Source: Chrysophaeum taylorii
Taxonomy: Eukaryota > Sar > Pelagophyceae > Pelagomonadales > Pelagomonadaceae
Assembly (NCBI GenBank): GCA_029834535.1
Contig: JAQMWT010000353.1
Location: 1-29,786, forward strand
Direction of reading: 5' to 3'
Length of the DNA stretch: 29,786 nt
Shown here: positions 2,201 through 21,350 of the stretch, in pieces
Layout of the letters: each line of letters opens with the position of its first letter
How positions within the stretch are numbered: position 1 is the first letter of the stretch
Notes under the pieces: model-generated
The model's database searches: none
What the model was told of the DNA's origin: nothing
Seen by the model: the letters and a program-made list of their open reading frames with translations, nothing else
Position numbers and translations under genes: made by a program

Positions 2201-4060
2201 TCCCCGTCTTCGTCTTTCTCGATCAATTTGTCGATAGGGTTGCGCGACAGACAATCCGGAATACGCATGCCAGGGGAGCTTCCAGGCTTGTATCCGAGCT
2301 CCCGGTCGAACGCAGCAAGCCGCATAGCCCATCGTGCTAACTGTCCAGACGTATGATTCGAATCCCGAAGAAACGTTAAATTACGATGATCCGTCTCTAA
2401 CTTCGTCTGATGACCTTCGATATAAAATCGGAAATTTTCGAGAGCAGAGAGTACTGCGAGGAGTTCCAAGCGCCGAGGATCGTACTTCCTCATCGACTTA
2501 GGCACGGTTCGACTCCAGTACTCGATAACTCTCTCTTCGATTCTTTCTCTTCCATCGTCGTCAACGACTGGTACCTTTTGAAATAGGTAAGCACCCAACC
2601 CATGCGCGGAAGCATCAGTTCGAATGTAAAAAGGTAACGAGTAATCAGGATGATAGACGCCCTTCGAAGTGACAATAGCCTCGATGATGGCATCCCAAGC
2701 TTCCTGACACTCTTTCGTCCACTTGAATTTCACGTCCGGCAACGTCAGTTGTCTTAATGGCTCTGCAACTTTCGCAAAATTCCTTACATAACGCCGGCAA
2801 AAACTTCCCATTCCAAGGAAAGATCGCACTTGCTTCTTAGGGTCAGCATCCGACAAAGTGCCAGGAATTGGCATGTGTCTGATGGCTTCTAAAGACCTTG
2901 GTGATGGAAGAAGTCCGTTCGGGGTAGATAAATGACCCAAAAACTCAATGACTTCTTGCATAAAATGAATCTTCTTGATCTTGGCACTGTACCCTTCAAA
3001 GCGAGATGGGGAATAACTTGCACAAGGCACTGCAAGTGATTCTTGTATCTGCGTGACCGGCGAGAATATCGTCGATATATGCCACGAGATCACGATATAG
3101 CCATTGCGACAAGTCAGTGTTCAACTGCTTGCAAAACAAACTTCCGGCTGGTTTGACTCCCAAAGGTAGACGCATGTAGCTGTACGCTCCCAGAGGACTA
3201 GTGAAGGTGACCACATCTTGTGCATCTAGCGACAATCGTAAATTGTGATAGCCCCAACGAATATCCAAACTGGAACGACAAAACTTGTCGATGAGAAACA
3301 TCAACGCGTCAGCCATGCTCACACTCGGCCAGCTATCATCCTTGAGCAATGCATTGAGGCGCCGTAGGTCGACAGCTGCTCTGTAAGCATTGGAAGTGCC
3401 AGGCTCAGCACCTTTCTTAGGCAACATCAAAATAGGGAACCCCCATGGAGAATTCGCGGGACGAATAACTCCGTCTCGGGTCCACGCTTCAATCTGCATC
3501 CGCAAACATTCAATCTTTTCTTTCGACAACCGATATGGCGAGAGTTTGACGGGAGTCGGGTTCTCTTCTTTGAACCGGAGCGTCACTTCAGGTGAATCAA
3601 CAGGTCTCATCACATCATCGAAAAATGCCCACGAATACGAGATTAAATGCTTCATCATCAGCTTCTCGTCATCATCTAAAGCAGGATGCTCTGTAATACC
3701 CAATTCAGTCATCACCTCTTCGACCTGCGCGACGGTCGGAGGGATGACCTGCATGCTCTCCTGACCCGCTAAATGAGGAGGCATCACCGGTAAAGGTTGA
3801 CCATGTTCGTCGTGAGGCGCGTCCGCCCACGGAACGTCGTACTTATTGAAATACGCTGGTCGCTCTTTCGCGGTGCCTTCTTCTTCAGCAGTTGCGGAGG
3901 GCTGGTTGTCGACTTGGTTGCTCTGCATAACAGCAGTGGCGACGGTGCCCTGCAAAAGATGAAGCCGTCCCAGGCGATGTAACTGAAGGTGGTGGTGGGG
4001 TGGTGGGGGCAGCAGCTGGTGGTGCAGGACTCGCAGGAGAATAGAGTTCATCGGGCGCAA
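2128..4060 (-). pseudogene. reverse transcriptase and RNase H (one frameshift)
   Basis: Copies element RNA into cDNA and removes the RNA strand. The RT part (4060 down to about 3000) contains RPANSPWGFPILMLPKK, VDLRRLN, PLGVKPAG and the catalytic YIDDIL box. The frame is lost near 3000 and resumes in another frame with IEFLGH and the connection region. RNase H follows with FYIRTDASAHGLGAYLFQ (catalytic Asp), an RRLELLAVL segment (catalytic Glu) and LETDHRNL (catalytic Asp). Spacing between the YxDD box and FLGH is normal, so the break looks like a one-base indel and not a deletion. The N-terminal 150 residues are Pro/His-rich linker. Sequence style is clearly Ty3/gypsy. Confidence 0.92.
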
Positions 4061-4097
4061 TATGACACCTCCGTCTAGTTTGTCGAGCTCGTCGTCA

Positions 4098-5063
4098 TCA
4101 AAACCTTCCTCTCCTGAAGGCAGGGCCGATAGCCGGGTGCGTAGATGAGCTGTTCACTATAATGAGCGGGTGACCACCTGTAAATCCCAACGCTGGCCCA
4201 AAACGGTCCCTTAAATTCGGTGGTACACGCGATAATAAAGGCAGGTTCAAGCGAACATTGCACGCAAGTAGGCGTGTGCGCGAGCACAGCAACTCTGGTG
4301 TGATACTATAGAAATCGACAATACGCGGCACATAAAATTGGTGATGCACAAAAGGGATCACTGATGGTTCCTGCTCGAGCGTCCATCGTCCAATCACATA
4401 AGGTGCGTTGCGGAAATGACGCAGGACCCAAGAAGTAATAGTAGCGCCCTTGCGTGCGTCCCTGTAGTGCAAATTGGCAGTCGACCCATAGATACACGGC
4501 GGACTGGCGTGAAAATAAGAATGCTTCCAAAAATCTGAATGTAAATACGACAACACTAAGTCGTATGTACGACGATGAGATTTCCCTAACTCATGCAAAA
4601 CATAGGGACTCTTTGGAAAATTGAGCTCAAAGGTGGCTCGGGCTTGAGGACAAGCATCCAAAGCCAGGACAATGCGAAATGAACTGCCATATAGCTCATT
4701 GCATCGCCGGATACCCAACGTTGATCCTCCAGCGCCAGCAAAGTAGACGACGACAAAGGTGTAGGTGATGGGTATCCAAACCAAGGAGGCGTGCTTAGAT
4801 AGCAGCTCCTTAGCAGTCGCCTCCATCTCCATTTCTGGTGTTTTTTTCACTTCTTCATCTGGAGGTGGCTGAGGAGGAGGTCTGTCACTCAAGACATCCT
4901 CCTCGACTTCATCGTCGTCAACAGCAGCCGTAAGAGTTGCATGACACACGTCATCAGTGGCTTCTAGCTGCATGTTGACACATCCTTCATGCGGCATGAT
5001 CTCGCCTTCGTGCTCGTCACGTACGCGAAATGAGGGATGATATCTTCCTCGTCTGCAGGGCAT
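4098..5063 (-). CDS. DNA cytosine-5 methyltransferase domain within Ty3/gypsy pol
   Basis: An uninterrupted 321-residue frame between the protease region and RT. Residues 1-90 are acidic, Pro-rich linker. From residue 104 the C5-methyltransferase motifs follow in order: motif I FAGAGG (108-113) for AdoMet binding, an acidic strand end ALDACPQAR (134-142), motif IV ASPPC with catalytic Cys190, motif VI LEQ with the expected Glu230 (EQ in place of the usual ENV), motif VIII SRTR (261-264), and FTGGHPLII (294-302), which resembles motif IX. The gap between VIII and IX is only about 30 residues, so the target-recognition domain is very short or absent, and I see no motif X. The PPC-x-STAN style resembles phage- and virus-type enzymes more than host DNMT1/3. 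It ends at two consecutive TGA codons. It was probably part of the polyprotein, since the next frame opens at once with acidic residues. Fold assignment is firm; activity is not established. Confidence 0.85.
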   Translation of the reverse strand: MPCRRGRYHPSFRVRDEHEGEIMPHEGCVNMQLEATDDVCHATLTAAVDDDEVEEDVLSDRPPPQPPPDEEVKKTPEMEMEATAKELLSKHASLVWIPITYTFVVVYFAGAGGSTLGIRRCNELYGSSFRIVLALDACPQARATFELNFPKSPYVLHELGKSHRRTYDLVLSYLHSDFWKHSYFHASPPCIYGSTANLHYRDARKGATITSWVLRHFRNAPYVIGRWTLEQEPSVIPFVHHQFYVPRIVDFYSITPELLCSRTRLLACNVRLNLPLLSRVPPNLRDRFGPALGFTGGHPLIIVNSSSTHPAIGPAFRRGRF

Positions 5064-6220
5064 TTAAGTTGGTCTTCCGCTTTTTCAGCAGTCTGATCAC
5101 CGGGAGGAACGTGATGGTGACTCGCTCTGATACGAATAGAGCGCAGTAGACTGTCATAACTCCACGGTTTACCAACTGGCGTCCAAGTTTGGATATTTCC
5201 GTATTGCACAGCAAGCTTAGCTGGGGACATCTGCACTACCTGCGGAGTCGCATCGAATGCATCATTGTAAGGACAATTCCATGCTGGTCTTGTGGCGAGG
5301 CGGAAGTCCGATTCTTGAGAACTCCAATGGTCACTTCAGAACGCCGAAAAATAGCTCTCTGTCGCATAATCCAAAATCGTACCCAAGAGTCGTAATTCTC
5401 GTGCTCCTAATAGTAATTGCCCATTCGTTTGACCAACGAAGAACATGAGCAGCATGGATGTCGTTGGCACCAAGGAGATCCGGAGAATGACCCATTCTCG
5501 AATAGCAGCTCCCGAACCTCCTGACCCATTTAGAGTACGAATCGTAGGGAGTGGCTGACGATAGATGATTTTGCCGTCACGATCAAGTTTGCGATACAAG
5601 CGGTGATCGATGTAGGGGGAATCAGCCATGCCATCCAAACCGGCAGCGATGATGGAATATTTCGAACCATCTAGCGAAGAGATAGCCACAGGCACATACG
5701 TCAAAGAGGCGGATCTCGTGCCATCGTACCTTTCGGCTTTATTTTCACGATGGTCGGGATCCTGAGTGGTATTCAACGCAGTCTGAGGGCAGAAACTCTC
5801 GAAATCCGAAGAGATGGAAGGGTGAGCGGCATAACGCTCGGCGCAGTCGTCCCTCGGTGGCACTATATCCATAGCAACCAAGGTATCTTGTCCCACACGA
5901 ACAATCGTATACCCCAATTCGTCACGATTATCTTCGTCTTCCGAGTGAACTCTAGATGCAACTCCAGTCACTTCGGTACTTTGCTCCTGCTCCTCCACCC
6001 ATGCATCTTCAGTGATGACCAAAAAGGAAGGAGGTTCCATGGGGTCACCAGGGGAATAGCCTTCTGCAGAGAAGCTATCATCATCGCCCCCAAACTCGTC
6101 ATCGTCATACACGTTGCCCTCCATGAGCTCAGAATATTGCACAGTGCAGTAGTCCGCTCGCTTAGTGTCATCCTGATCTTCGCCAAGCACTTCAAGGCAC
6201 TGAGCGGTACACCATCATTG
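4964..6220 (-). pseudogene. protease-like region and linker at the start of pol
   Basis: Opens in the -1 frame relative to gag, overlapping it over about 6220-5968. An acidic N-terminal part (DDDEFGGDDD) precedes a retropepsin-like segment near 5640-5350. The position of the D-S/T-G-A loop is occupied by LDGMADS, so the catalytic triad is not canonical. Later residues (GQLLLGARELRLLGTILDY) fit the end of an LTR-element protease. The frame meets one TGA at 5336-5338, then stays open to 4964 through a His/Pro-rich linker that overlaps the start of the methyltransferase frame. The protease call rests on position and weak similarity. Confidence 0.55.
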
Positions 6221-8332
6221 CGCTGGCTAGGGTTCGCTCTCTGAGAATGATGCCCTCTACCCAGTGGAGCCGTCTGCTGTGCCTGATGAATCAAGTTCAT
6301 CGTGTTGAGAGCCGTAGTCAGATCCTCCAGCCGCACCGAGGTCTGAGCGGTCCGCTGCACTGCGGGCTGCCTTCGGACCACCTGCTGTTGAGAGCCTGCA
6401 ACCAAACGCTGTTGAGTGCCTGCAACCAGCTGCTGTTGACCTGCACCCGGCACCTGTGCTGCTGTGTAGACCACCTGCGGCTGTTGCACAACGCGCGGCG
6501 CTAGCTGAGTCACTGAAGCCTGTCCTGCTGCAGCTAAAAGCGTCCGTCGGTATTGCTCCTGTCCCTCTGGCGTTGCTGGAAAACCCGCATTCGTCAACGT
6601 CTGAGCAGCACGCCTCTTCCTCGAGGGATTGTCCGACACAGGACACGCACCATTGTCGTGGTTAAAACTACCATACCGGCCGCAACTGAGGCACGTCGTA
6701 ATTGCTTGACGCGTATGGTTATCTATCCCCTGTGGTAGCCAGGTTCCAACTCCCGAGTCAGTAACATAACCAACTCGTTGGACTGGCTGCGACTGCTGCA
6801 TCTGCTGCTGCTGCTCTCTCCTCATCCGTGTTGCGCGCTCCTTTCCCTTCTCCTTCTTAATCGCCTCTTCGATGTTGGCAGTAGGGTTGGCTTCCAGAAT
6901 CTTGGAAATCTGGATGGTCAATTGAATGACATCGTTGAGGGTGAGAGTAGATGCTTTCATATGCGGTAATGCCTGAGCAAGTTCGACGCTCGTCCGCAAG
7001 CGCTCAGAATTGAGCCCAGCAATGAAGTGCGAACGGAACGCAGCAGGATCAGTATCACGACCCGACATTGCTCGTCACTGGCCGAATTTCTGCACCCATC
7101 GCGCAATATACTTATTCAATGACAAATTTCCCTGCCGTAAATTGAACCATTCACGTTCAAGCTCCTCAGCCGTAGCCCGAGGTGGACAAGGAAGCTTCGT
7201 CGTCTCTTGCATAGCATCCAGACAGTCCTCATCATGCTGGCGCAACTCTTTCAGTGTGATGGTCCCATCCTTGTATTGTTTCCACATCTGCGGCCGTTCA
7301 GCTTCGCATTTGCGATAAGCTTCCATAGGGGGGAGTTGATACTCGCCTCCAATCACGTTCATCGCTATTGAGGGTTTATCAATCTTGCCTTCCATCATAC
7401 GCCGCAATTGCATCCACCACGCGTCCACCTCATCACGGTCCTTAGTAATTTGCCCAGTGAGATTCGAAAACGTGATACGTGTCATACCAGGAGCTCCCTT
7501 CTTGACATGAAGTATATCTTCTTCGTCACGAGGACGCGCCGAACCGGGGTCAGTATGATGGTGCGGGGTAGGCTCCGGTCGACTTCGCGGTGGCTGATCA
7601 TCGGTCAGTGCCGATACAGCGTCATCATCGTCGGGCGTAACACGAGTCGCATCCGGAGAGGTTGGCCGTGCCTCTCGAGCATGCGCCCGCATGGATTCCT
7701 CCACCATTCGTCGAAGTCAATCGTTGTCGATCCGCTTCCGCTCCACTTCTGAGCGTTGTTGTTGAGCGTCGCGGCGGGTGCTCTCAAGTTCACGTATGAC
7801 TTGCTCGATGCGACTGGTACATCTCGAATCGTTCGGCGATGGTCTGCAGAACCTCGGGGTCGACACCCACGCGAAAATCTGTCACTCTCGTATTCGCAGA
7901 TGGTGGCCTAGAAGGTGCACTTTCCTCAGGTCCATGCATCGCCGTAAACGGTCCGGGTTCCGCTCGAGATGACTCCGTAGTATTCATCGCACGTTCGTAG
8001 GGTCGTGCGTACGGGACCGTCGGCTCACCCGGTCTTGAAGTTGCGTCTGGCGCAACCGTAGCTCCCCTTTCGCCGGCGCGTGGATCCGGAAGGACGACCA
8101 CGCTGGGGGGGCTGTCGATGCTATCAGATGATCTTGCCTCTCTTACGATGCCGCCTTCCTCGGCTTCCGGCCGTTGAAAGGGCGCACTGAATGGTGTTCT
8201 TCCAATAGACGCAAGGCACTGAATCGTTGCAGACGCTCCTGTGCGCCCCGAAACCACGGCGGTCGTTCTGTCATTGGCCTCTCTGCCATGACCGCGCTTT
8301 GCCCGGATAACAGGCTTAATCCGAACGCTCAC
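5968..8332 (-). pseudogene. gag polyprotein with zinc knuckle, broken
   Basis: Structural protein of the retroelement particle. The first part (8332-7790) is Pro/Ser-rich and has no ATG at its head; its frame stays open upstream to about 8413. After a frame change near 7800 comes a Gln/Arg-rich coiled-coil-like stretch, a TGA at 7717-7719, an Asp-rich linker and the capsid-like region (WWMQLRRMMEGK, FNLRQGNLSLNKYIARWVQKF). A second TGA at 7075-7077 is followed in the same frame by AAFRSHFIAGLN, so the domain continues across it. The nucleocapsid zinc knuckle is CLSCGRYGSFNHDNGAC (C-x2-C-x8-H-x4-C), with a longer loop than the usual x4. A Gln-rich tail (QQQ tracts, 6250-6500) follows. Confidence 0.85.
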
Positions 8333-8760: not shown

Positions 8761-9091
8761 TGTAGTGGTTTTCTCAGATACCGCCCCTCCTGGCCGGACC
8801 AGGGGCTTCAACAGCCCTTTCTCCCAACCCGAACCGCGGGCGAAACCACCACACGCCCGATCTCAGCGTAATACCTCACGCCATCACGAAATCCGATAAG
8901 CAAAAGAGGGTAATATCAAGAAGACAGCAAGGAAGCAATACAAACGCCTGGTACATTGGGTTCAGTGGAAGCGCAGGTGAGGGTGTCAAGATGACACCTC
9001 CCCCCATAAGTGCAAGGTCAATACTAGAGCAACAATCAGGGTAAGTCAGGTGGCAGGCAGGCAAGTGGGGGGAATGGGCGTTACTGCCACA
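8761..9091 (-). repeat. 5' LTR of the Ty3/gypsy element (right, complete)
   Basis: A 331-bp repeat bounded by TG...CA (tgtagtgg...gccaca), homologous to 1-316. As the 5' LTR it should hold the element's promoter; I cannot point to a TATA box with confidence. Confidence 0.93.
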
Positions 9092-9110
9092 CCTTCAAGC
9101 ACCCGCACGC

Positions 9111-9196
9111 ACCCCCCCAACCGCTGTCGACCTTTAAAAACCCCCAAGCCCCCGACGCACACCCCCACTTTAAGTTGTCGACCTTTAAAAACCCTC
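9111..9196. repeat. duplicated GTCGACCTTTAAAAAC motif upstream of the 867-aa gene
   Basis: The motif gtcgacctttaaaaac occurs twice about 47 bases apart (near 9126 and 9175), each after a C-rich run. A close relative, gtcgacatttaaa, ends all three tails of the endonuclease-type retroelement (21350, 21478, 29659). Here it could be a TATA-like promoter (TTTAAAAA) about 280 bases before the ATG, or the remains of such a tail. The rest of 9197-9466 shows no second gene. Confidence 0.5.
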
Positions 9197-9466
9197 ATCC
9201 CTCCGTATGAAGAGGCGACGGATGGTCATGGTGTCTTGGGGCGAGGAGTGTTGGGCCCCGCGCCAACTGGAAGCGTAGCCTGCAGCGCATGTACCCTCTC
9301 AGTTCCGCGCTTGCGTCGTCGTCGACCCACGAGCCGAGCGCGTGAGTTGATTTCACATTCGCGACCACTAGAACCGACACTCGGTCGGTCGAGTTTTTTT
9401 CCTCGAGAACCCGCTTCGGGCCGACGAATTGTGGCTGAAAAGCCCTTAAGTCATTCCGAAAGCACG

Positions 9467-12070
9467 ATGGAGGAGTACCAGGTTCGGCGGCGTCCGAGCT
9501 TGGAAGTGGACTACGTGACCGCCGCGTCCCGCGACGAGGCCAAAGCGGAGACGAAGATGTTTGAGGAGGGTTGGAAGTTGCTCAAGGCCGAACAGGCCAA
9601 GTGCGGCGGCGAGAAGCCGAGGCGGCTTGTTGCGAACCGTGCGATTCAGGATCTTCGGGTGAAACGCGTCGTGCGCAAGCTGGGTGCGCTGTTCTCCTTG
9701 CTCGAGGAAGGCGCGCACGAGCTGCCGTATCTATCGCGCGCGAGCGCGTCAGAGATCGTCATGGGAACGGCTTTAGTTCTTGGCGACGAGAGGGTCGTAG
9801 CGTGGTTGTTTCTCGGCGAAGACGTCAATTTTGGGGACGAGGTGTTCGACCCGCTCCGCCAGCGGCTCACGTTGCGGCCGGGGAGCTGCTTCGCGACATT
9901 GCCGCCCTGCGCGGTGTGGGAGATCCGACGCGTCGCGCACTCGCTCGCCTTCGAGGACCCTTTGCTCGAGAACATCACGCGCGCCGATTGTTCGAAGGCC
10001 CCCAACGACAGCGGCTGGCAGGCTCTGGGGTGCCTGTGTTGGTTAGCACAGCGCGATGACGACGGCTGGGCTGCGCGTCACATCCAGAACCTACCCGACG
10101 CGGCAGCTGTCGAGGCCATACTCGCGCTAGCGCACGACCTCGGACTCGGGGCGGTGCGCTGCTCGTGGCTCAGCGAGGACGAGCCCGACTGGACCCAACT
10201 TTTGACGAAAAAGAAGATGGTCTTGACGTGGCGTCCCGGGAACAACAACAACAACAACAACAGCAACGCTAACAACAATCATAATCATCATCACAAAACC
10301 TTCCACCAAACCCCCAACAACGACGTGGTGAACTGCAGCGGGTGCTTGGACGTGATCCTCGGCAACTTTGACGTTCACAAGGGCTTTCGACTTCCGCTCA
10401 CCGACGTGACCGCCTCGCGGGGCCGCGCGAGCTTTCGGCGCGATTGGGATGCCGTGGTGCCGTTGAGCAGCGCGCGACGAAAACCTCACGAGACCAAGTC
10501 ACTGCACTTTGCCGCGGCCGTCGAGTGTGCAGCGCTGGGGGACATCGTCGAGGAGAGGTTGGGAGCACTCGACAGGGACGAGGCCCTTGGTATCGAACAC
10601 TGCGAGGCGTTATCTGGGAGCCTCTTTATGGTCGCCGAGCTCGGCGTCGTCAAGCGCATGCGCGCCGTAGACGCCGAACGGCTGCCTTCGACGCTCGACG
10701 AGCTGCAGACCGCGTTGCAGACCTCGCTCGAGCGCGCGTTGCGCGAGTCGGCCGTCGTGCCTCTTGGCTGCGACGCCGCCCTCGACCGCTGGTGCCGTTC
10801 CTATGCTCAAATCATCTGGGCCACGCACCGCGTTATCCCGCAGACCGCGGTGGGGCACTACCTCCCCTCGGACCTCGTCTCCGACGTGTCGGCCTCGATC
10901 GATTCCATCAATCGGCTCTACAACGGCTGCTGCGACGTCTCGTCCAAGCAAAGGGTCCAGGCCCATCTCACCGCCGAATATGCCCGCCGGGCGCAAGCGG
11001 CGAGGCTCTTGCTTTCGCGCCTCGACCTCGCCCCGCGCTGGTTCCGCGCCCTTCTGGTGCTCGCGTGCGTCGCGTGCTACGCCGCGACGCACCTCGCACT
11101 CGGTCTCTTGGTTCCGACCACCTTGATCTCGATCTCCGACGCGCCAACGCACCGCCACCGTCGCCGCGTGCCGCTGCTTCCGCGTCTCCGGCGACGCGCC
11201 CTTTCGTTTTTAGGTTTGGTCGCGTGGCACGTCGTGCTCTTTGGTATCGTTCTGTCCGCGCTGCGCGCTTTCTTGCGCCGCTTGATCGACGAGACCGTGC
11301 CGCGCGCCGTCGAGACTACGCTGTACGCGCGCCTGCGCCGCTGCACGACCACTTCGCTCCTCGTCGAGAGGATTGCGGCGCTCCGAGCCGAGTGTACCGC
11401 CGTCTACGCGAACTGGCAACGCCACGTCGCGGTCGCGCAGCTGGCTGATTGCATTAACCGCGGCCGCGCGTCGCTTGCTGAGGCGACGGCCGCGCTTGAC
11501 TCGTGTTTTCCCTCAGTCCCGGACACCCTCGACGACTTCCTCGCCCTGCGTTTAGAGCCGCGCGCCCCAAAAAACCAAAATGCCGTCTTACCCCTAGCGT
11601 ATCGTTTGATTGACGCGGTCGACGACATCCTCGCCTCCCCGCTCAAGTGCCGAGCCTACTACGCGGAAAAGCGCGCGGCCGCCTTGTGCGAAAGTTTTGC
11701 CTTTGAGGGCAACGAAGACCGCACGGTCGAGGACGCTCTCGTCGAAGAGGGCTGGCGGTTTGATCGTGAAGCAGCCGGCAACGTCGTCGTGGGATATCGC
11801 AAGCCGCCCGGACGATCGTCGCCGGTCTTCGCAGAAGAAATCCGGGTTGCTCCCAAGGTGATCGATGACTGCGACATCGATGACTTCTCCCCCGGGATAT
11901 CGCGCGAGGACAACATTACTTCTTCCGCCTCGTCCGGGAAAAAAGCTCGTACGACGAGCTGCGAGCTTCCCCTTGACCATAACTCTACGCAGTGGTGCCA
12001 AGATGTTCCGCGACTTCGCCCTGTCGCTGTCGCAAACCGCCGCAAGAAACTACGCCAACGAAAGAAATAA
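9467..12070 (+). CDS. hypothetical 867-aa two-pass membrane protein
   Basis: I do not recognise the family. The frame is open from inside the LTR, but the ATG at 9467 (cacgATGG, good eukaryotic context) is the likely start because upstream residues are low-complexity and run into the transposon. Residues 1-90 are charged and helical. Near 95-127, LGDERVVAWLFLGEDVN resembles a single ankyrin-type helix pair. A run of Asn then His (about 258-285) is a low-complexity insert typical of eukaryotes. Two hydrophobic segments (about 525-554, WFRALLVLACVACYAA...; and 578-603, ALSFLGLVAWHVVLFG...) are likely transmembrane helices joined by an Arg/His-rich loop. The C-terminus is Ser-rich and ends in a Lys/Arg cluster (NRRKKLRQRKK). 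It is intronless, GC-rich and convergent with the AAA+ gene 158 bases away. Confidence 0.75.
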   Translation: MEEYQVRRRPSLEVDYVTAASRDEAKAETKMFEEGWKLLKAEQAKCGGEKPRRLVANRAIQDLRVKRVVRKLGALFSLLEEGAHELPYLSRASASEIVMGTALVLGDERVVAWLFLGEDVNFGDEVFDPLRQRLTLRPGSCFATLPPCAVWEIRRVAHSLAFEDPLLENITRADCSKAPNDSGWQALGCLCWLAQRDDDGWAARHIQNLPDAAAVEAILALAHDLGLGAVRCSWLSEDEPDWTQLLTKKKMVLTWRPGNNNNNNNSNANNNHNHHHKTFHQTPNNDVVNCSGCLDVILGNFDVHKGFRLPLTDVTASRGRASFRRDWDAVVPLSSARRKPHETKSLHFAAAVECAALGDIVEERLGALDRDEALGIEHCEALSGSLFMVAELGVVKRMRAVDAERLPSTLDELQTALQTSLERALRESAVVPLGCDAALDRWCRSYAQIIWATHRVIPQTAVGHYLPSDLVSDVSASIDSINRLYNGCCDVSSKQRVQAHLTAEYARRAQAARLLLSRLDLAPRWFRALLVLACVACYAATHLALGLLVPTTLISISDAPTHRHRRRVPLLPRLRRRALSFLGLVAWHVVLFGIVLSALRAFLRRLIDETVPRAVETTLYARLRRCTTTSLLVERIAALRAECTAVYANWQRHVAVAQLADCINRGRASLAEATAALDSCFPSVPDTLDDFLALRLEPRAPKNQNAVLPLAYRLIDAVDDILASPLKCRAYYAEKRAAALCESFAFEGNEDRTVEDALVEEGWRFDREAAGNVVVGYRKPPGRSSPVFAEEIRVAPKVIDDCDIDDFSPGISREDNITSSASSGKKARTTSCELPLDHNSTQWCQDVPRLRPVAVANRRKKLRQRKK

Positions 12071-12228
12071 GTGGGATCTTACAACTCCTAGGCGCCTACT
12101 CGTCGTCGTCGTCGTCGTCCGTGCAAAACCGCGAGATTGGCGCCTGCCTGCCTAAGCGGAGTGCAGTGTTGGCCGGCCGGCGCCTAAGTGCGCGAAACTA
12201 CCGCAGTTGATAGTCAATGGTCGACAAT

Positions 12229-13239
12229 TTATTGATATTTACGACCCCCGCCGACCACTGCGAACGAAAGATTCCACGACCAGGGCTCCTTGCCGGGTGC
12301 CGGGGATGAGAAGATCCCCGGCTGTTTATCCTCGGGATCCTCTTCTTCTCGTTGCACCAAGCGCGCGACGAGATTAACGCTGCACCGCGTGTTGCGCCAC
12401 ATGGAGAATCCAAACTTGGCTTGGTTTGGGCATACCTCCAAAAGAAGTGCCCTAGCGGCGAGCAGCGCTTGGCCTTCAAAGACTTCGGTGTGGAAGCGCG
12501 AGAGCGCGTGCGCTCGCGCCGGGCTCCGCGCCACCAAAACCGCGAGCGCGTCTGCGAGACTCTCGTCGACATCAACCCAGCCTCGCCAGCGAAAGAGCAT
12601 CGCGTCTCGGACAGCCGTCGTCGCTTTCGTTCTCGTGTACAACGAGACAAGCTGCTGAAGATCTTCGTTTGGCAAAGGCTCGAGTCGAATAATCGTCCAA
12701 TCGTCGTCGCGCAACGCTGTCGGAAGACGTCTCGCGGTGACGATCGCCGGCGCATACGGCACGTCTTCTTGAACATCGTCGACCACCACCATCTCCCAGG
12801 GCCTGGGCTCGTGCGCCACGTGCCCCGACCACCACGCGACCCCGCACTGCGTCGGATAAGGTCGGTTGGGCCGGAACAGGGTCGACGCGACGACCTCGGC
12901 TAGAAGGCTCTTTCCGGTTCCTGCGGGCCCCTCGATCGCGACGCGAAGCGGCTCGTGTCCCCGAGCGGCCCGTACGAGCGCCTCGCGCGCCGAGGCGTGG
13001 CCCGCGACGCGCCGCTCGAGTTCGCCTTCGAGCCTCACTGCCGCACTTTTGTGCGACACCGCATTGAGACACGCGCCCGGCCACCACCTCACGGCCAACA
13101 GGCCGACGACTAAGGCTCCAACAACGCCGATGACCTTCGAACGCGCGGCGCTGCGCTCATCTTCATCGTCCTCGCGAGAGAGTCCGAGCTTTGCCGTCGT
13201 GCTTTCAATTGGATCCGTTCGAAAGTATCCGTTACATTT
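12229..13239 (-). CDS. AAA+ ATPase with N-terminal membrane anchor (5' end unresolved)
   Basis: A P-loop ATPase. In the open frame, residues 36-50 (VIGVVGALVVGLLAV) form a hydrophobic anchor after an acidic DDEDE stretch. Walker A is GPAGTGKS (104-111) and Walker B is MVVVDD (150-155). A region IIRLEPLPNEDLQQLV follows where AAA+ lids begin. The segment LERRVAGHASAREALVRAA just before Walker A, together with the anchor, recalls torsin/ClpB-type proteins, but torsins carry Asn after GTGK and the likeness is weak. There is no in-frame ATG before Walker B; the frame opens after a TAA at 13240-13242, so a first exon or a non-ATG start must supply the N-terminus. An overlapping frame (13334-13110, starting MFAYDMILGGG) could be that upstream exon. 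It stops with TAA. Confidence 0.72.
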   Translation of the reverse strand, partial: KCNGYFRTDPIESTTAKLGLSREDDEDERSAARSKVIGVVGALVVGLLAVRWWPGACLNAVSHKSAAVRLEGELERRVAGHASAREALVRAARGHEPLRVAIEGPAGTGKSLLAEVVASTLFRPNRPYPTQCGVAWWSGHVAHEPRPWEMVVVDDVQEDVPYAPAIVTARRLPTALRDDDWTIIRLEPLPNEDLQQLVSLYTRTKATTAVRDAMLFRWRGWVDVDESLADALAVLVARSPARAHALSRFHTEVFEGQALLAARALLLEVCPNQAKFGFSMWRNTRCSVNLVARLVQREEEDPEDKQPGIFSSPAPGKEPWSWNLSFAVVGGGRKYQ

Positions 13240-13538
13240 TTAGCCTGCACATGGAGCGGGAATGGCCGGGGGACGGCCGGCCTCAAAAGTGAGGCGTTGT
13301 TGCCCCCGCCCAAGATCATGTCGTAGGCGAACACTCACTCCCGACCCCTCTTTCTGCTCTCCCCGTCTGGAAGCCCTGCGGTCCCGCGCGCTACGGCGCC
13401 CAGCATACGCCCCATGCACTACTGAGCTGGCACATATAGTTCGTGATAGTTTGTCACTTACTACTAAGAGTTAGTTATAAGTGCATTCGTCCCGGCGAGC
13501 AACTGCACCAATCAATCAATAACCGGTTGTTTAAATGA

Positions 13539-13850
13539 ACAGGAGTAAAGTCAAACGATGGTGGCTGGTTGCTCCCACAAGACGGTCAGACGTCGTTCAA
13601 ATTCGAACCATGCACCCGCAGCGGGCTGTCGGGGGCGGCAGTGTTGCTCGACGACGCCGAGTCGATCGACGTGCTCGGAATTGGAACTCCCGGAGACGGC
13701 GTGACCATGGACGGTCGCCCTCGGATCGTGCTTGTCATCACAGTCGTAACAATAAGGAAGATTACGCACTACAGCCCCACTCCGACCCAAATACTGGTAC
13801 CCCCACGCCCCGTCGATCGAGCAAGTGAGCGGCGCCAGACCTGTGTCTAG
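13539..13850 (+). CDS. small ORF with a possible serine-protease-like segment
   Basis: Open frame with no ATG at its head; an AG at the end of aaatgaacag could be an acceptor site. The translated stretch contains TRSGLSGAAVLLDD followed by VLGIGTPGD, which resembles the catalytic-Ser strand of chymotrypsin-like proteases (S/G-x-S-G-x-P/A-V, then a VGI strand). The His and Asp parts of a triad are not visible, so at most this is a fragment or one exon. The C-terminal half looks non-coding. Low confidence. Confidence 0.25.
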   Translation, partial: TGVKSNDGGWLLPQDGQTSFKFEPCTRSGLSGAAVLLDDAESIDVLGIGTPGDGVTMDGRPRIVLVITVVTIRKITHYSPTPTQILVPPRPVDRASERRQTCV

Positions 13851-13867
13851 GAGTGCGCGTACGGCCG

Positions 13868-13910
13868 ATCAAATCAAATCAAATCAAATTAAATTAAATT
13901 AAATTAAATT
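13868..13910. repeat. (AAATC/AAATT)n pentanucleotide microsatellite
   Basis: Runs of aaatc then aaatt in tandem. The stretch that follows (13911-14571) has Ser/Pro-rich open frames without domains; I see no supportable gene in it. Confidence 0.9.
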
Positions 13911-14571
13911 GAATGCCCCCGAGACGAAATTCCCACCCGCCTTCCTCGGTTCCACACGTTGCTATGTCGCTCTCGTAGCTCGCGCTGACGTCAAGCGCAG
14001 CAGAGCTGACAGTCTCTGAACTGCGTGGCTTCTTCATTTCGTCTGCGAGGACACTCCGCCGATGGTGGCGCGCTGAAGGCATTGCCATCGCGCTGCGGTA
14101 GCGGTCGTGGGGGCTATCCCATGTGAGCGCGGCCCTTAACATACACCGAGGAAAGACAAGGGGCCAACGGGAGGTGGGACTGTATAAGCAGAAGGAGTGT
14201 AAGAAAGAAAGCTGATTTGGTCGACCGGTCGGGGCACGAGGAGCGCAAAAGGCGGGAGAAAGCAGTCGCTTGAGAAATGTCGAGGCGTGGCAACAAATCC
14301 ACGTAGGGAGTACATTCGTTGCTGATTCATGCGGGGGTCCCCTCAAACCCCCACTCGATTCAGTGGTTGGAGAAGGTGAGGATGATACGCGCGGTGTTTC
14401 GTCGACGGACGTTGCGGGCACAGGTAACGGCAGCATTCGAGAGCCGCATCCAAGCAGGTCGCCCGAGACGGCAGGAGTAGCAGGAGATAGGGTGGCAGCG
14501 CGCCTCCCTCGTGAAAGCAAAAAAAAACGTCAAAACAAAACGAGGACGCCGGGCAAAGATCCCAAAAATAA

Positions 14572-15261
14572 TCAAGACTTATCTTCGTCTTCCTTCGCGG
14601 CGGCTTCAGCCTCGTCTTCCGGCTGCGTTTCGCGGTCTCCTTCATCTTCCATCGGCTTGCACGCGTCTTCCGAACGAGTAGCTTCGGCTTGTCGCAACAC
14701 GAAGAAGCGGACGGACTGTCCGTCGACGCTGTGCTTTACGGTGAGGTCGACGTCGCCGGCGACGAGATTGGCACCGGCGCCGGTGAAGGGCTGTCCGATG
14801 TCAGTGCGCTCGAGGACACATTCGTCGGCCGTCTCGCGCGCCGCGGCCTCCCACGCGGTTTCGCCGAGGTGGCGCTTGCCGCCGGGGAAGTCGAGGGAGA
14901 CGACGCCGCGGGCGTCGACGTAGGTAAGCGCGAGGACGAAGCAGTCGTCGTCAAGCGGCACGACGTCGAGACCTTCGAGGACGTGGTGCTTGACGTCGAC
15001 GACGACGGGCCGCTCTTCGACGACATTCTCGTCGTCGGCTCGTGCGAACGGCAGCCGAATCTCGGCTTTGTCGTCGGCGCCGGCGTCGACGGCGGCGCGC
15101 AGTCGCGCGATCTCGATGCAGACGCACCGCGACAGAACGAGCTGGCCACCACCTTCGGTGCACACCGAGAGACGTGCAGACGGACCGTTCAGGAGGACGT
15201 CGGGGTCCACCATAACCCCTTGGTCTTCCAAAGCCTCTGAGTCGTCGCCCTCGGCGACAAC

Positions 15262-15294
<33 letters not shown>

Positions 15295-16044
15295 TTCGGG
15301 GGGAGGCTGAATGTTCGGGGTCACGACCATCTCGCCGTGCTCGTCGTCGGCGTGTATGATAACGCGCTTGTGCATGTGGGTTTTGTCGGTGTTGGCGCGC
15401 TCGCAGGCTGCCGCGATGTGGTCCTTGGTGCCAACCCAGCACACCGCGCCGTTTCGCCAGTCGCCGTCGAGAAGACACGCAGCACAGCTGACGCGCTGGG
15501 TCGGCATTTCTGACGTGGCGATCGCCGCCGCGAGCCGCGCCTCGCGGTCGCGACGCTCGTCGCGCGACTCGTCGGACGCGGGCGGGAAAAACCCGTGGGC
15601 AGCGCCAAAGTGGACGTCGGGCGCGCGCGCGTCGCGAGACACGACGAGATATCCCGAGTCGGCCCCGAGCTTCTCGCGCACTCGCCGGAGTCGCTGGCAC
15701 TCGCAGCCCGGGCCGTGGACCTTGAGCTGCTGGAGGCTCGCGTTCTTGAAGCTGCGCGCCGGCAGCGGCGACGACGAGAAAAGCGGGCTCGAGCTCCCCG
15801 ACGATTGAGACGCGAGTGACGACGGTCCGCGTGGCGACACCGACCGCGATTCGCCGTCTGACGGCCACCGCTGCATGGGCTGCTTTTTCGTCGACGCGGC
15901 ACGACCCCGGTCGGGGCTGCTCGACCCCCGATTCCCACGCCTCTCGGGCGACGACACCGTCGGCCTGCTCTGACTCCGCCGAAACTTTGTCGGCACGAAC
16001 TCGGCGGCCGAGGGGTTGAGCGGTGAGCTCCGAGAGACCACCAT
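14572..16044 (-). CDS. Nudix hydrolase with long disordered N-terminus
   Basis: Hydrolyses a nucleoside diphosphate linked to another group; the substrate (nucleotide sugar, cap, dinucleotide) cannot be told from sequence. I chose the Met at 16044 (gccATGG context) over 16053, giving 490 aa. The Nudix box lies at about 389-408: G-x5-E-x7-RETADE, so one Glu of the metal-binding REUxEE is Asp. VSLDFPGGKRHLGE is the usual entry strand. Residues 1-105 are Ser/Arg/Pro-rich and probably disordered. Cys pairs (CEC near 114, CAAC near 187) could bind metal. A ten-Asp run sits at about 251-260, and the tail after 465 is acidic. The protein is far longer than a minimal Nudix protein (about 150-200 aa). 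It is GC-rich and ends with TGA. Confidence 0.85.
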
Positions 16045-16053
16045 GGCACACAT

Positions 16054-16780
16054 GGGACACTCGTTCAACAAGGAAGCGCTGGCCAAAGCGATTCCGGACA
16101 GCAGATAGTTTGCCCCACAATGAGAAAGTGCCTCGCAAGGAAGGAAAGGAATCTGCGCAATCTTTCCGAAGATTCACTCACTGCGTGCAGGCCCAAAAAA
16201 GACTTAACCACTAATTAGCTGTATAATCAGAATGTATGTCTGTCTTTCTGCGGTCACCACACGATGCTTTCGATTTTCAACTACAAATAATACATCTTGA
16301 TTGTACATATTTTATTACAAACCATGTGGCTGGCTGTCTCGCGATTTCCTTCTTTTTTTCTTCGCATCAGCCACGAACGACGACGGTGGCAAGGAAGTTT
16401 ATCTCCGGACGCGACCACCACATACTGCTTCAAAGGGTGGCCACCTTCGACCTCATCCGACCCGTGACTCATCCGACCCTCATCTCCTCCGACCCTCACC
16501 TCATCTCATCCCATCCGAGGCTGTGGTCGGTGTTCCGTGCCACGTGACCCTTCCGCCACTATTGCTGCGTCCGTTGTCCCATGACCGTTGTCAGTGGACC
16601 GTTTCAAGGTTTATTTGCGATCTCAATATACGTAAAATTTTCGTCGTAATGCACTTCACATTTCACTTGCTTTGAAGTAAGGGTAAGCAATGAGTTTCGT
16701 GGATTCTAGGCGTGGCTAATTGTGGCCAGGGGTCGCGGGCGCGGGCCGCGGGCTGCCGGTGAAGAGACGAATAAGAATGA
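16054..16780. other. intergenic stretch, nothing convincing
   Basis: AT-richer than the preceding genes. 16440-16530 holds loose repeats of catccgaccc/ctcatc. No ORF with recognisable features; this is probably the promoter region of the Nudix gene plus spacer. Confidence 0.5.
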
Positions 16781-17064
16781 CAAGTGCAGGCCAGTAAGTC
16801 CACCTACTCCCAATCTCCAACCCCAGTAAGTTCACCTAATCCCGTTAAGTTCACCTAGTCCCAATCTCCAACCCCAGTAAATTCGGCGCAAACCCACTCG
16901 TGCTCAAATCCACTCACCCCACTCTCCTTCGAACTCGTCGCGCTCACCCCCGCCAATATAAGCTGCTTTGATCCGCACACGCCGCTAACCTTTGAGTTTA
17001 CTCTAAAAACCCAGTAAGCTCACTTGGTCCCAGTAAGTTCACCTGGTCACTTAGTTCACATCTT
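16781..17064 (-). repeat. CTTACTGG module, copy 1
   Basis: Starts at caagtgcaggccagtaag and is built of repeated cagtaagttcacc(t) units separated by ggtccc or aatctccaacccc spacers, plus a fixed core (gccaatataagctgctttgatccgc region) and actctaaaaaccc. It is the reverse complement of the modules at 17741, 18756 and 19830. Confidence 0.85.
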
Positions 17065-17130
17065 CCTAACTACTAATCGACAGATGTTTGTCTGTTTGTT
17101 TGTCTGTCTGTCTGTCTGTCTGTTTGTCCC
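17065..17130 (+). repeat. CTAACTACTAATCGACAGAT motif and (TCTG)n microsatellite
   Basis: The motif ctaactactaatcgacagat followed by TCTG/TTTG repeats begins each direct unit of the array (here, at 18016/18036, and at 19055) and recurs inverted three times near 21640-21735. Confidence 0.85.
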
Positions 17131-17194
17131 TCGATTTAGGGTAAGGATCAGGTAGGCGCGAGAGTAAGGATCAGGTAGGCGCGAGAGCCAGACA

Positions 17195-17740
17195 GTGATC
17201 CTCCAAGCCGTCTACGGCGACCTCGCAGACTATTTCCACGACCCGCGGCGGCTCTTTTAGCCAGCGCGCCATTCTCACGCCCCGTCGAAACGATGTTGTC
17301 GATGCTGACAACGCGCGCATGACCGCGGCCTTTTTTTCCCGGAGACGAGGCGTCGGAGTTTTTTTCGGCTGACTAGGCTGGGTCGGAAGACGACGCCTCG
17401 CTCTTTACAGTAGAGTTTTCAACTCCCTGACAACCAACGGGATGCTGACTTTGAGCGCGAGCTTAATGTCTTCGCAACCTCGACCCGTCGCACGGCCACT
17501 GCAACGGTACCAGATACATGATCGATCGTGTCGTTGTCACCGAGGCTCCTCCAACCTGTATCCCTTAAGGCCCGCCTACGCCAAACGATCAACAAGAGCC
17601 AGGGCCAGACGTCCCGCGAGGTCGGCGTCCTCTTGGCGAAGCCCGTCTTCTGCCACGTCCAGCTCGACGTGGCTCTCTGTCGATCGGCAACCCCGAGGAT
17701 ATCCTCTTCTGGGTCGACGACTCCACCCTACCCCACACGT
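17195..17740 (+). pseudogene. Helitron/PIF1-type helicase C-terminus, array copy 1
   Basis: Remnant of an SF1 helicase as found in Helitron RepHel proteins and cellular PIF1. Pieces in successive frames read AVYGDLADYFHDPRRLF, AILTPRRNDVVDADN, a PG..A.EFFS stretch, LRNLDPSHGHCNGTRYMI, TINKSQGQT (motif V/VI region) and VGNPED-like residues near the end. These blocks, in this order, are characteristic of the Helitron helicase. Several stops and indels break the frame. It joins the following CTTACTGG module 57 bases earlier than copies 2 and 3 do. Confidence 0.82.
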
Positions 17741-18014
17741 GAGCTTACTGGGACCAGGTGAGCTTACTGGAGTTTTTTGCAACTCAAACTCAAAGGTTGG
17801 CGGCGCGTGCGGATCAAAGCAGCTTGGATTGGCGGGGGGGAGAGCGACGAGCACAAAGGAGAGTGGGGTGAGTGGGTGTGAGCACGAGTGGGTTTACGCC
17901 GGGAGAGAGATTGGGACTAAGTGAACTAACTGACCAGGTGAACTTACTGGGACCAGACCTAAACTTACTAGGGTTAGATATTGGGACTAGGTGAACTTAC
18001 TGGTCTGCACTTGT
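17741..18014 (+). repeat. CTTACTGG module, copy 2
   Basis: ggtgaacttactgg-type units with the same core as copy 1 in the opposite orientation; ends ctggtctgcacttg. Confidence 0.85.
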
Positions 18015-18015
18015 C

Positions 18016-18110
18016 CTAACTACTAATCGACAGATCCTAACTACTAATCGACAGATGTTTGTCTGTCTGTCTGTCTGTTTGTCTGTTTGTCTGTTTGTCC
18101 CTCGATTTAG
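18016..18110 (+). repeat. duplicated CTAACTACTAATCGACAGAT motif and TCTG/TTTG microsatellite
   Basis: Same junction sequence as at 17065, here with the 20-base motif present twice before the microsatellite. Confidence 0.85.
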
Positions 18111-18166
18111 GGTAAGGATCAGGTAGGCGCGAGAGTAAGGATCAGGTAGGCGCGAGAGCCAGACAG

Positions 18167-18755
18167 TGAGCCTCCAAGCCGTATACGGCGACCTCGCAGA
18201 CTATTTCCACGACCCGCGGCGGCTCTTTCAGCGCGCCATTCTCACGCCCCGTCGAAACGATGTTGTCGATGCTGACAACGCGCGCATGACCGCGGCCTTT
18301 TTTCCCGGAGACGAGGCGTCGGAGTTCTTTTCGGCCGACTAGGTTGGGTCGGAAGACGACGCCTCGCTCTTTACAGTAGAGTTTTGAACTCCCTGACGAC
18401 CAACGGCATGCTGACTTTGATCGCGAGCTTAATGTCTTCGCAACCTCGACCCGTCGCACGGCCACTGCAACGGTACCAGATACGTGATCGATCGTGTCGT
18501 TGTCACCGAGGCTCCTCCAACCTGTATCCCTTAAGGCCCGCCGACGCCAAACGATCAACAAGAGCCAGGGCCAGACGCCCCGCGAGGTCGGCGTCCTCTT
18601 GCCCAAGCCCGTCTTCTGCCACGTCCAGCTCTACGTGGCTCCCTGTCGATCGGCAACCCCGAGGATATCCTCTTCTGGGTCGACGACTCCACCCTACCCC
18701 ACACGTGCTGCGCAATACCGATAAGCCCCCTCCCGGCGTCTACACGCGCACTATA
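18167..18755 (+). pseudogene. Helitron/PIF1-type helicase C-terminus, array copy 2
   Basis: Near-identical to copy 1 but with the fuller 3' end (through gctgcgcaatacc...ctatag). Reads include FLNSLTTNGM, LRNLDPSHGHCNGTR, TINKSQGQTPREVGVLLPK and PVFCHVQLYVA, close to the usual Helitron FSHGQLYVALSR block, with His-Gly replaced and Ser lost. Frameshifts between blocks prevent a functional product. Confidence 0.82.
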
Positions 18756-19054
18756 GGTGAACTTACTGGGACCAGGTGAACTTACTGGAACCAGGTGAAC
18801 TTACTGGGGTTGGAGATTGGAACTAGGTGAACTTAGTGACCAGGTGAACTTACTGAGACCAAGTGAGCTTACTGGGGTTTTTAGAGTAAACCAAAGGATA
18901 GCGGCGTGTGCGGATCAAAAGCAGCTTAGATTGGCGGGGTGAGAGCGACGAGCTCAAAGGAGAGTGGGGTGAGTGGATGTGAGCACGAGTGGGTTTACGC
19001 CGAACTTACTGGGGTTAGAGATTGGGACTAGGTGAACTTACTGGCCTGCACTTG
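18756..19054 (+). repeat. CTTACTGG module, copy 3
   Basis: Starts ggtgaacttactggg directly after ctata and ends gcctgcacttg, next to the ctactaatcgacag motif of the next unit. Confidence 0.85.
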
Positions 19055-19172
19055 TAACTACTAATCGACAGATGTTTGTCTGTCTGTCTGTTTGTCTGTT
19101 TGTCCCTCGATTTAGGGTAAGGATCAGTTAGGCGCGAGAGTAAGGATCAGGTAGACGCGAGAGCCAGACAGT

Positions 19173-19829
19173 GATCCTCCAAGCCGTCTACGGCGACCTC
19201 GCAGACTGTTTCCACGAGCCGCGGCGGCTCTTTCAGCGCGCCATTCTCACGCCCCGTCGAAACGATGTTGTCGATGCTGACAACGCGCGCATGACCGCGG
19301 CCTTTTTTTCCCGGAGACGAGGCGTCGGAGTTTTTTTCGGCTGCTGACAACGCGCGCATGACCGCGGCCTTTTTTTCCCGGAGACGAGGCGTCGGAGTTT
19401 TTTTCGGCTGACTAGGCTGGGTCGGAAGACGACGCCTCGCTCTTTACAGTCGAGTTTTCAACTCCCTGACAACCAACGGCATGCTGACTTTGATCGCGAG
19501 CTTAATGTCTTCGCAATCTCGACCCGTCGCACGGCCACTGCAACGGTACCAGATACATGATCGATCGTGTCGTTGTCACCGAGGCTCCTCCAACCTGTAT
19601 CGCTTAAGGCCCGCCTACGCCAAACGATCAACAAGAGCCAGGGCCCAGACGCCCCGCGAGGTCGGCGTCCTCTTTCCCAAGCCCGTCTTCTGCCACGTCC
19701 AGCTCTACGTGGCTCTCTGTCGATCGGCAACCCCGAGGATATACTCATCTGGGTCGACGACTCCACCCTACCCCACACGTGCTGCGCAATACCGATAAGC
19801 CCCCTCCCGGCGTCTACACGCGCACTATA
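19173..19829 (+). pseudogene. Helitron/PIF1-type helicase C-terminus, array copy 3
   Basis: Third direct copy. It differs by a 67-bp tandem duplication (19276-19409) of the segment spanning gctgacaacgcgcgcatg to the ttttttcgg run. TINKSQG, PVFCHVQLYVALCRS and GNPEDILIWVDDSTLPH remain legible in separate frames. Confidence 0.82.
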
Positions 19830-20066
19830 GGTGAACTTACTGGGACCACGTGAACTTACTGGGGTTGGAGATTGGGACTAGGTGGACTGAGTGACCAGGT
19901 GCACTTACTGGGACCAGGTGAACATACTGGGGTTTTTAGAGTAAAGGGTTTTTAGAGTAAACTCAAAGGTTGGCGGCGCGTGCGGATCAAAGCAGCTTAG
20001 ATTGGCGGAGGCGAGAGCGACGAGCTCAAAGGAGTTGGTGTGAGCTAGGTGAACTTACTGACCAGA
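19830..20066 (+). repeat. CTTACTGG module, copy 4 (truncated)
   Basis: Begins like copy 3, has a doubled gggtttttagagtaaa near 19930-19960, and is cut where the inverted helicase copy starts; it lacks the gcacttg end. Confidence 0.8.
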
Positions 20067-20068
20067 TG

Positions 20069-20800
20069 AACATTGCGCAGCACGTGTGGGGTAGGGTGGA
20101 GTCGTCGACCCAGAAGAGCATATCCTCTGGGTTGCCGATCGACAGAGAGCCACGTAGAGCTGGATGTGGCAGAAGACGGGCTTGGGCAAGAGGACGCCGA
20201 CCTTGCGGTGCGTCTGCCTCTGGCTCTTGTTGATCGTTTGGCGTCGGTGGGGCTTATGGGATACAGGTTGGAGGAGCTTCGGTGACACGACACGATCGAT
20301 GATGTATCGGGTGCCGTTGCAGTGGCCGTACGACGGGTCGAGGTTGCGAAGACTTTAAGCTCGAGATCAAAGTCAGCATGCCGTTGGTTGTCAGGGAGTT
20401 GAAAACTCGACTGTAAAGAGCGAGGCGTCGTCTTCCGACCCAACCTAGTCGGCCGAAAAGAACTCCGACGCCTCGTCCTCGGGAAAAAAGGTCGCGGTCA
20501 TGCGCGCGTTGTCAGCATAGACAACATCGTTTCGACGGGGCGTGAGAATGGCGCGCTGAAAGAGCCGCCGCGGGTCGTGGAAACAGTCTGCAAGGTCGCC
20601 GTAGACGGCTTGGAGGATCACTGCCTGGCTCCTCGGGAAAAAAGGTCGCGGTCATGCGCGCGTTGTCAGCATAGACAACATCGTTTCGACGGGGCGTGAG
20701 AATGGCGCGCTGAAAGAGCCGCCGCGGGTCGTGGAAACAGTCTGCAAGGTCGCCGTAGACGGCTTGGAGGATCACTGCCTGGCTCGCGCGCCTACATGAT
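20069..20800 (-). pseudogene. Helitron/PIF1-type helicase C-terminus, inverted copy 4
   Basis: Reverse-complement copy meeting copy 3 and its module head to head. TINKSQ, PKPVFCHIQLYVALCRSA and FLNSL-type blocks are readable on the minus strand. A 154-bp tandem duplication (20478-20785) repeats the AILTPRR...AVYGDL part, so this part of the helicase is present twice. Confidence 0.82.
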
Positions 20801-20834
20801 CCTCACCCTAAATCGGGGGACAAACACCCCGACT

Positions 20835-21350
20835 TGTCGAACAGCGGCTACGTAGCTACGGCACCGTCGCCGGCCTCGTCTTTGGTGCCTTCGGTGAGGC
20901 CAGCGCGGCGTGCCACGCTCTCGCCCAAACATGCGCAGAGCGCATCGCTGCGCGAACCTGGGTGACAAGCGGCTGCGCCAACTTCACAGAGGCAAAGGCG
21001 GCCCAAACTCGCCGCATCTACCGTGAGTGGGGGATCGCCAACGCATTAGGCCGGGCTCGCTGTGCCCTCACCGCCCTCACCCATGTCGCCGCCTCGGGGA
21101 ACCCCGCCCAGGCCGCCCGATCCCAGCAGGACGTCACCCTTCGTCGCACATACGTCCGGCGGCAGCATGCGTTCGACCTACGGGCGGGGCCCGTCCTCTC
21201 TTCGCCTGCCCCACGCCTCGGCGATGACCCCGACTAGGTCCCGCGTACTTATCTCCGCCCGTCAGGCACATCCCTCATACCCCACAAACCCACCCACATC
21301 CTTCATGCTCCCCACACACACCCCCCCCCTCTTAGCAGTCGACATTTAAA
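20835..21350 (+). mobile_element. 5'-truncated tail of an endonuclease-type retroelement, copy 1
   Basis: Begins abruptly at tgtcgaacagcggctacg and matches 29142-29659. It encodes only the last part of the protein (EQRLRSYGTVAGLVFGAFG, then TEAKAAQTRRIYREWG and LGRARCALTALTHVA), stop TAG near 21235, then a C-rich 3' UTR ending cagtcgacatttaaa. Family: the same protein as copy 2, where an endonuclease-like motif is visible. The flanks are remnants of the inverted helicase copy (taaatcggggga) on the left and gacaaaca on the right. Confidence 0.7.

Follow-up and report, generated by a model that had tools for sequence, protein, structure and literature searches.

The stretch analysed here, which we call the window, is the whole of contig JAQMWT010000353.1 (our C353): 29,786 nucleotides of the 70.8-Mb, 697-contig genome of Chrysophaeum taylorii (Pelagophyceae). 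At one end it holds a long terminal repeat (LTR) retrotransposon on the minus strand. Within that element lies an open reading frame (ORF) of 321 amino acids (5063-4098, minus strand), which a first-pass annotation had read as a cytosine-5 DNA methyltransferase (C5-MTase) inside the Pol region of a Ty3/gypsy element. We find that the window element is almost certainly one degraded member of a large family of Ty3/gypsy elements that carries a C5-MTase between a protease-like region and the reverse transcriptase (RT).

A methyltransferase in a decayed Ty3/gypsy element

The C5-MTase domain occupies 4115-4781 on the minus strand, where Pfam, siblings, profile alignment and motif positions agree in placing it. 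Using the I-X numbering of C5-MTase motifs, the ORF retains motif I (FAGAGG, residues 108-113, 4742-4725), motif IV (SPPC, including Cys190, 4505-4494), motif VI (LEQ, including Glu230, 4379-4371) and motif VIII (SRTR, residues 261-264, 4283-4272), all placed as the first-pass annotation had them. FTGGHP (residues 294-299, 4184-4167), which that annotation had counted in the same series, is to our knowledge not among the standard C5-MTase motifs. A loose regular expression for the motif order, composed after the ORF had been seen, had a single match across all six reading frames of the window; none of 100,000 shuffled versions of the ORF matched it.

Taken alone, the window ORF scores under the Pfam cut-off of 22 bits for PF00145 (18.8 bits; expectation value (E) 0.0012), matches the NCBIfam dcm profile at E 0.016, and has neither a PDB match nor a homologue in a set of 5.8 billion proteins. 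Two deletions account for these results, because they cut the domain before motif X. Directly ahead of the domain, at a junction at 5009-5011, about 220 bp have been lost relative to the sibling locus L037 (blastn); the sibling frame cannot be aligned with the ORF's first 18 residues. At 4068-4115, about 344 bp of L037 are gone, replaced by about 46 bp that do not align (blastn and tblastn), a loss that removed motif X and shifted the frame into RT. Chance occurrence of the motifs is ruled out by the PF00145 scores of siblings, the profile alignment with phage MTases and the shuffles.

The remaining parts of the element, all on the minus strand, fall in Ty3/gypsy order. A direct-repeat search gave LTRs at 9091-8761 and 316-1, the latter truncated by the contig end; their alignment has 315 pairs with 300 identities, 15 mismatches and 14 gap positions. 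On the minus strand the LTR starts with TGTGGCAG, at 9091 in the 5' copy, and finishes with ACCACT. The putative gag region (6178-8328, frame disrupted) was located by tblastn with residues 1-721 of the L037 frame, and the putative protease-like and linker region (5006-6205) aligns with residues 713-1114 of that frame. The identity of both was taken from position and sequence; neither gave a Pfam match above cut-off in the window or in the siblings tested (Retrotrans_gag in the window, E 0.049). Beyond the C5-MTase come the RT core (RVT_1, 3050-3421; E 5.9e-7, 29.8 bits against a cut-off of 29.6), RNase H (RT_RNaseH and RT_RNaseH_2, 2308-2721; E 2.1e-26 and 3.2e-24) and a possible integrase C-terminal remnant (830-910; Integrase_p58_C, E 0.057, under cut-off). 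Integrase is clear in siblings only: L035 and L038 score above cut-off for its zinc-binding domain, and L035 for its core domain as well. We claim no tRNA primer site, as searching the genome for a 19-base pattern that would pair with the sequence past the 5' LTR gave 0 matches. Sub-cut-off Pfam matches such as those to PBP_N (E 0.039), Exotox-A_cataly (0.0055) and Urocanase_C (0.077) were put down to chance.

Siblings, subfamilies and selection

Intact relatives settle the identity of the domain. The full-domain siblings L037 and L031 match PF00145 at 38.3 and 37.9 bits (E 1.4e-9 and 1.8e-9), so that the profile search proposed by the first-pass annotation comes out above cut-off in full-length siblings, if not in the window ORF; the partial sibling L069 reaches 21.8 bits, under cut-off. 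Searching the genome with the window ORF gave at least 132 matches (124 of 908 candidates scored), some of them pieces of one copy. A second subfamily, seen as L069 and 42% identical to the first, gave at least 150 (150 of 922 candidates scored). Like the window copy, many others are broken. The positions of motifs I, IV (PC), VI (E), VIII (RxR) and X (GxxVP) are each retained in 33-36 of the 36 loci compared; two of these, the window copy (L001) and L015, lack motif X.

The expectation of many siblings with the same part order was borne out. Searches with MTase and with RT returned equal frame lengths at C225, C311 and C345 (2129, 2115 and 1812 amino acids); an 1815-residue frame at C421 contains the MTase and the beginning of the RT part, and the RT search also reported second-subfamily frames of 3067 and 3063 residues. 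Because MTase and RT matches share one open frame in several siblings, the MTase lies in the Pol frame, the arrangement also described for the KnitGypsy-Dnmt3 elements of Klebsormidium nitens. We divided 150 RT matches by identity into 106 of the first subfamily and 44 of the second. Among the matches listed, 76 of the 106 follow an MTase match on their own strand at a distance of 0.8-3.5 kb, a count that took in 43 of the 150 second-subfamily MTase matches. For the second subfamily the figure is 23 of 44 using all 150 listed matches, and 25 of 44 once 28 hand-picked PF00145 matches from the genome are added. The same position in both subfamilies and their 42% identity suggest that the capture of the MTase probably predates their split.

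The MTase is kept by selection between two sub-lineages. Comparing L037 with L031, the ratio of nonsynonymous to synonymous substitution rates (dN/dS) is 0.058 in the MTase, 0.088 in the stretch to the N-terminal part of RT, 0.20 in the protease region, and 0.26 and 0.38 in the linkers before and after the MTase; gag is saturated. Across 42 pairs of open domains (14 x 3 copies, two sub-lineages) dN/dS ranges from 0.049 to 0.080 with a median of 0.066, and bootstrapping one pair gave 0.036-0.092 (489 of 500 replicates usable). Nonsynonymous to synonymous polymorphism (pN/pS), pooled over 14 open copies of one sub-lineage, is 0.23. With dS near 1.5 and a set limited to open domains the dN/dS ratio is soft, yet the constraint is clear.

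Relatives of the domain and of the element

Of the enzymes compared, those of phages and viral contigs gave the best profile match to the domain. The family profile aligned from motif I to motif X with ten C5-MTases from viral contigs and phage (98%, E 8e-14); this viral/phage profile, A3, was made of 9 of the 19 IMG/VR relatives of Aphanizomenon phage CL131 gp003 plus L072, and the tree described below used 8 plus L072. The phage enzyme and its relatives share the whole domain with the element but stand outside retroelements in the loci seen, and identity to the phage C5-MTases is about 20-24%. Other searches returned little. In the protein set, profile A1 found one protein of 396 amino acids with PF00145 (E 0.008; 7994 candidates scored), and IMG/VR gave 2 loci with 32-33% identity across about 94 residues. 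A tblastn search of phages gave one record (E 6e-4), and none with the second subfamily. The MTase part of a sibling polyprotein found no homologue in the protein-set search, and scans of prokaryote genomes yielded no confirmed relative. A first structure model was poor (predicted template modelling score, pTM, 0.38); a second, with phage sequences added, reached 0.67.

Searching the genome with PF00145 gave at least 123 matches (123 of 474 candidates scored), and the only single host-type genes among those inspected were two. L040, in a frame of 2086 amino acids, is DNMT5-like (PDB 7r76, E 3e-143, entered under the name DNA repair protein Rad8 and in our reading Cryptococcus Dnmt5), and L039 is DNMT2-like (PDB 1g55, E 3.9e-39). 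With these host genes as single-sequence templates, which are less sensitive, the element domain had no match to L040 (hhalign probability 0.1, 20 columns) and a weak partial one to L039 (probability 12, E 0.0023, 146 columns). The phage-like motif style noticed in the first-pass annotation has a counterpart in the profiles, which lie nearer to phage-type enzymes than to host DNMT5 or DNMT2. In a tree of 20 rows the gypsy MTases form one group (100/100) on a branch of 3.54 with no resolved neighbour; the long branches of the DNMT2 and DNMT5 rows come together, with P0001 attached to them (86/87). Going by sequence comparison, the label that suits the domain best is that of an orphan C5-MTase, phage-like in profile, not close to host DNMT5 and only weakly like host DNMT2; it may descend from DNMT1 or DNMT3.

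Methyltransferase-carrying retrotransposons were known before, as the first-pass annotation had noted with reference to de Mendoza and colleagues (2018). DNMT3 is described in a Klebsormidium nitens Gypsy element and in Symbiodinium DIRS elements, and orphan DNMTs in Symbiodinium long interspersed nuclear elements (LINEs) (PMC5890265). Orphan DNMTs are described as widespread, some perhaps through viral transfer, and DNMT3 is also mentioned in Copia and DIRS elements (PMC12344493). Weighing against novelty of the general idea, Ty3/Gypsy and DIRS elements with adenine or cytosine methylases are reported from many eukaryotes, including stramenopiles and algae (PMC6338049). What sets the present variant apart is its apparently orphan C5-MTase. 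We found no published account of the window's element in the literature searched, where coverage of journals was partial, so that its absence from print is not established. SymbioDIRS-Dnmt3 and SymbioLINE-Dnmt likewise place DNMTs in high-copy retrotransposons, those of SymbioLINE being orphans as well. Their carriers, unlike ours, are DIRS elements with a tyrosine recombinase or LINEs (PMC5890265). A LINE has neither LTRs nor integrase; here LTRs flank the window element and a gypsy integrase is found in siblings.

A second multicopy family in the genome (L041-L068, for example C96:64110 and C582:17361) also has a C5-MTase, with no detectable likeness to that of the window element in profile comparison. 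LPCQ...ENV occurs in an open frame of more than 300 amino acids in 20 of its 28 loci, and ahead of the MTase in L050 and L055 (two frames read) there is a DGGA stretch that we take to be protease-like.

Elsewhere in the window, a unit of roughly 1 kb occurs three times in direct orientation within 17097-20809, with inverted copies at 20072-20809. ORFs 20812-21237 and 28525-29544 have VEQRLRSYGTVAGLVFGAFGEASAACHALAQTCAERIA in common, marking a further dispersed repeat. A retroelement fragment at 27056-27841 (Pfam SH3_retrovirus, E 1.7e-9) presumably comes from a Copia-type element. On the plus strand, a stop-to-stop frame of 1029 amino acids (8981-12070) starts within the 5' LTR and has no Pfam match at E 0.01; on the minus strand, a frame of 533 amino acids (14572-16173) has a NUDIX domain (E 1.1e-4, above cut-off) and acidic runs.

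Possible roles of the methyltransferase

The first-pass annotation had suggested that the element could methylate its own copies; the copies carry no CpG decay as a sign of it. In the 30 best-matching loci, which are probably younger and so limit the test, C-to-T changes affect 287 of 12,411 cytosines at CpG (2.31%) and 882 of 37,666 other cytosines (2.34%). Across 16 contexts the rate runs from 1.83% (TCG) to 3.39% (ACT) with none clearly standing out, and an earlier count split into CG, CHG and CHH found no CG excess; we see no clear decay in any context as a sign of methylation. For the window element the observed/expected CpG ratio is 1.05, and for the flank at 9100-21000 it is 1.28. Long-lived CpG methylation with ordinary deamination would hardly leave such a pattern, which agrees with marks that are transient or lie outside CpG, with methylation of RNA, or with efficient repair.

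The lack of CpG decay is one of several points that weigh against the explanation we favour, in which an orphan MTase kept by selection methylates new cDNA. Motif VI reads EQE rather than ENV, VPQ is absent ahead of RxR, and only a short stretch separates motif VIII from motif X. The fold match is not independent, since the alignment for the structure model contained phage MTases, and the selection ratio is soft for the reasons given. Finally, among the matches listed, 30 of 106 first-subfamily and 21 of 44 second-subfamily RT matches have no MTase upstream, which MTase matches beyond those listed may explain but need not. The separate-insertion case that the first-pass annotation had named as a refutation was not encountered among these matches, the MTase sharing one frame with RT in several copies.

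By analogy with the cDNA self-methylation model put forward for SymbioDIRS-Dnmt3 (PMC5890265), the MTase would travel in the Gag particle alongside RT and integrase and would methylate the newly made double-stranded cDNA no later than integration; the methylated copy would then pass as self, or be shielded from a nuclease or deaminase of the host. Such self-methylation is plausible, and we tentatively regard this route as the most likely of the readings. The best explanation overall, at a probability of roughly 0.55, combines a gypsy family, an orphan MTase kept by selection and methylation of cDNA.

The MTase could instead target RNA, either that of the element or its tRNA primer, stabilising genome RNA or helping priming. 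The absence of CpG decay and the partial likeness to host DNMT2 would suit such a role, DNMT2 and DNMT6 are tied to RNA (PMC12344493), and SymbioLINE-Dnmt produced no DNA methylation in yeast, a result its authors called inconclusive (PMC5890265). The far better profile match to relatives of an annotated phage C5 DNA MTase makes this unlikely, though it fares best among the alternatives. Somewhat less likely still, the MTase may work in trans on the host genome, competing elements or viruses, its de novo marks then being maintained by DNMT5. DNMT5 is described as a maintenance enzyme and C. neoformans as without de novo activity (PMC10538959), an antiviral role has been proposed for methylase-carrying Ty3/Gypsy and DIRS elements (PMC6338049), and the single host-type genes inspected are of DNMT5 and DNMT2 kind. 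Set against this are the undecayed CpG sites of the copies, the flank ratio of 1.28, and an exon-by-exon search in which part of the matches were inspected, so that a host DNMT1 or DNMT3 may have been missed.

We consider it improbable that the domain is a DNMT3 relative and the element one of the KnitGypsy-Dnmt3 kind rather than a separate lineage. The likenesses are real: both are LTR Gypsy elements whose Pol frame includes a DNMT, both occur in several copies without introns and retain the key residues, and in both the DNMT is under purifying selection (Ka/Ks below 0.2 in KnitGypsy-Dnmt3, about 0.066 in ours). KnitGypsy-Dnmt3 differs in having a DNMT3-type enzyme, a host with a plant-like DNMT set and repeats called DIRS-like (PMC5890265), whereas here the enzyme looks orphan and phage-like, a DNMT5-like host gene exists, the LTRs are ordinary direct repeats, and the matches number in the hundreds over at least two subfamilies. 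Against PDB sequences, profiles A1 and A2 matched only 8yf3 and the prophage protein 3g7u (E 0.08-0.9), and A1 found no DNMT3 up to E 10, though no DNMT3 sequence was set directly beside the domain. The tree had none among its rows, and the fold-comparison rows tie. The better PDB match, 8yf3 (E 0.08), is titled DNA cytosine C5-carboxymethyltransferase, a mere curiosity at such an E value. That the domain is a captured fragment without function, as the many broken copies might suggest, is contradicted by the median dN/dS between sub-lineages, the pooled pN/pS and the retained catalytic residues, and is very improbable.

The element is real and common in its genome, and its MTase is kept by selection. 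As a long shot, an orphan phage-like MTase fixed once in an ancient gypsy Pol might through its copies act as the chief de novo cytosine methyltransferase of the genome, setting marks for DNMT5 to copy; if so, the host methylome would depend on a parasite's enzyme. The family would add one more case of a retrotransposon that captured a C5-MTase, set apart by an orphan-looking enzyme, hundreds of matches and a DNMT5-like host gene. It makes testable what retroelements gain from a methyltransferase of their own and where a DNMT5 host may get new methylation, and it suggests that a parasite may mark its freshly made DNA with its own enzyme.
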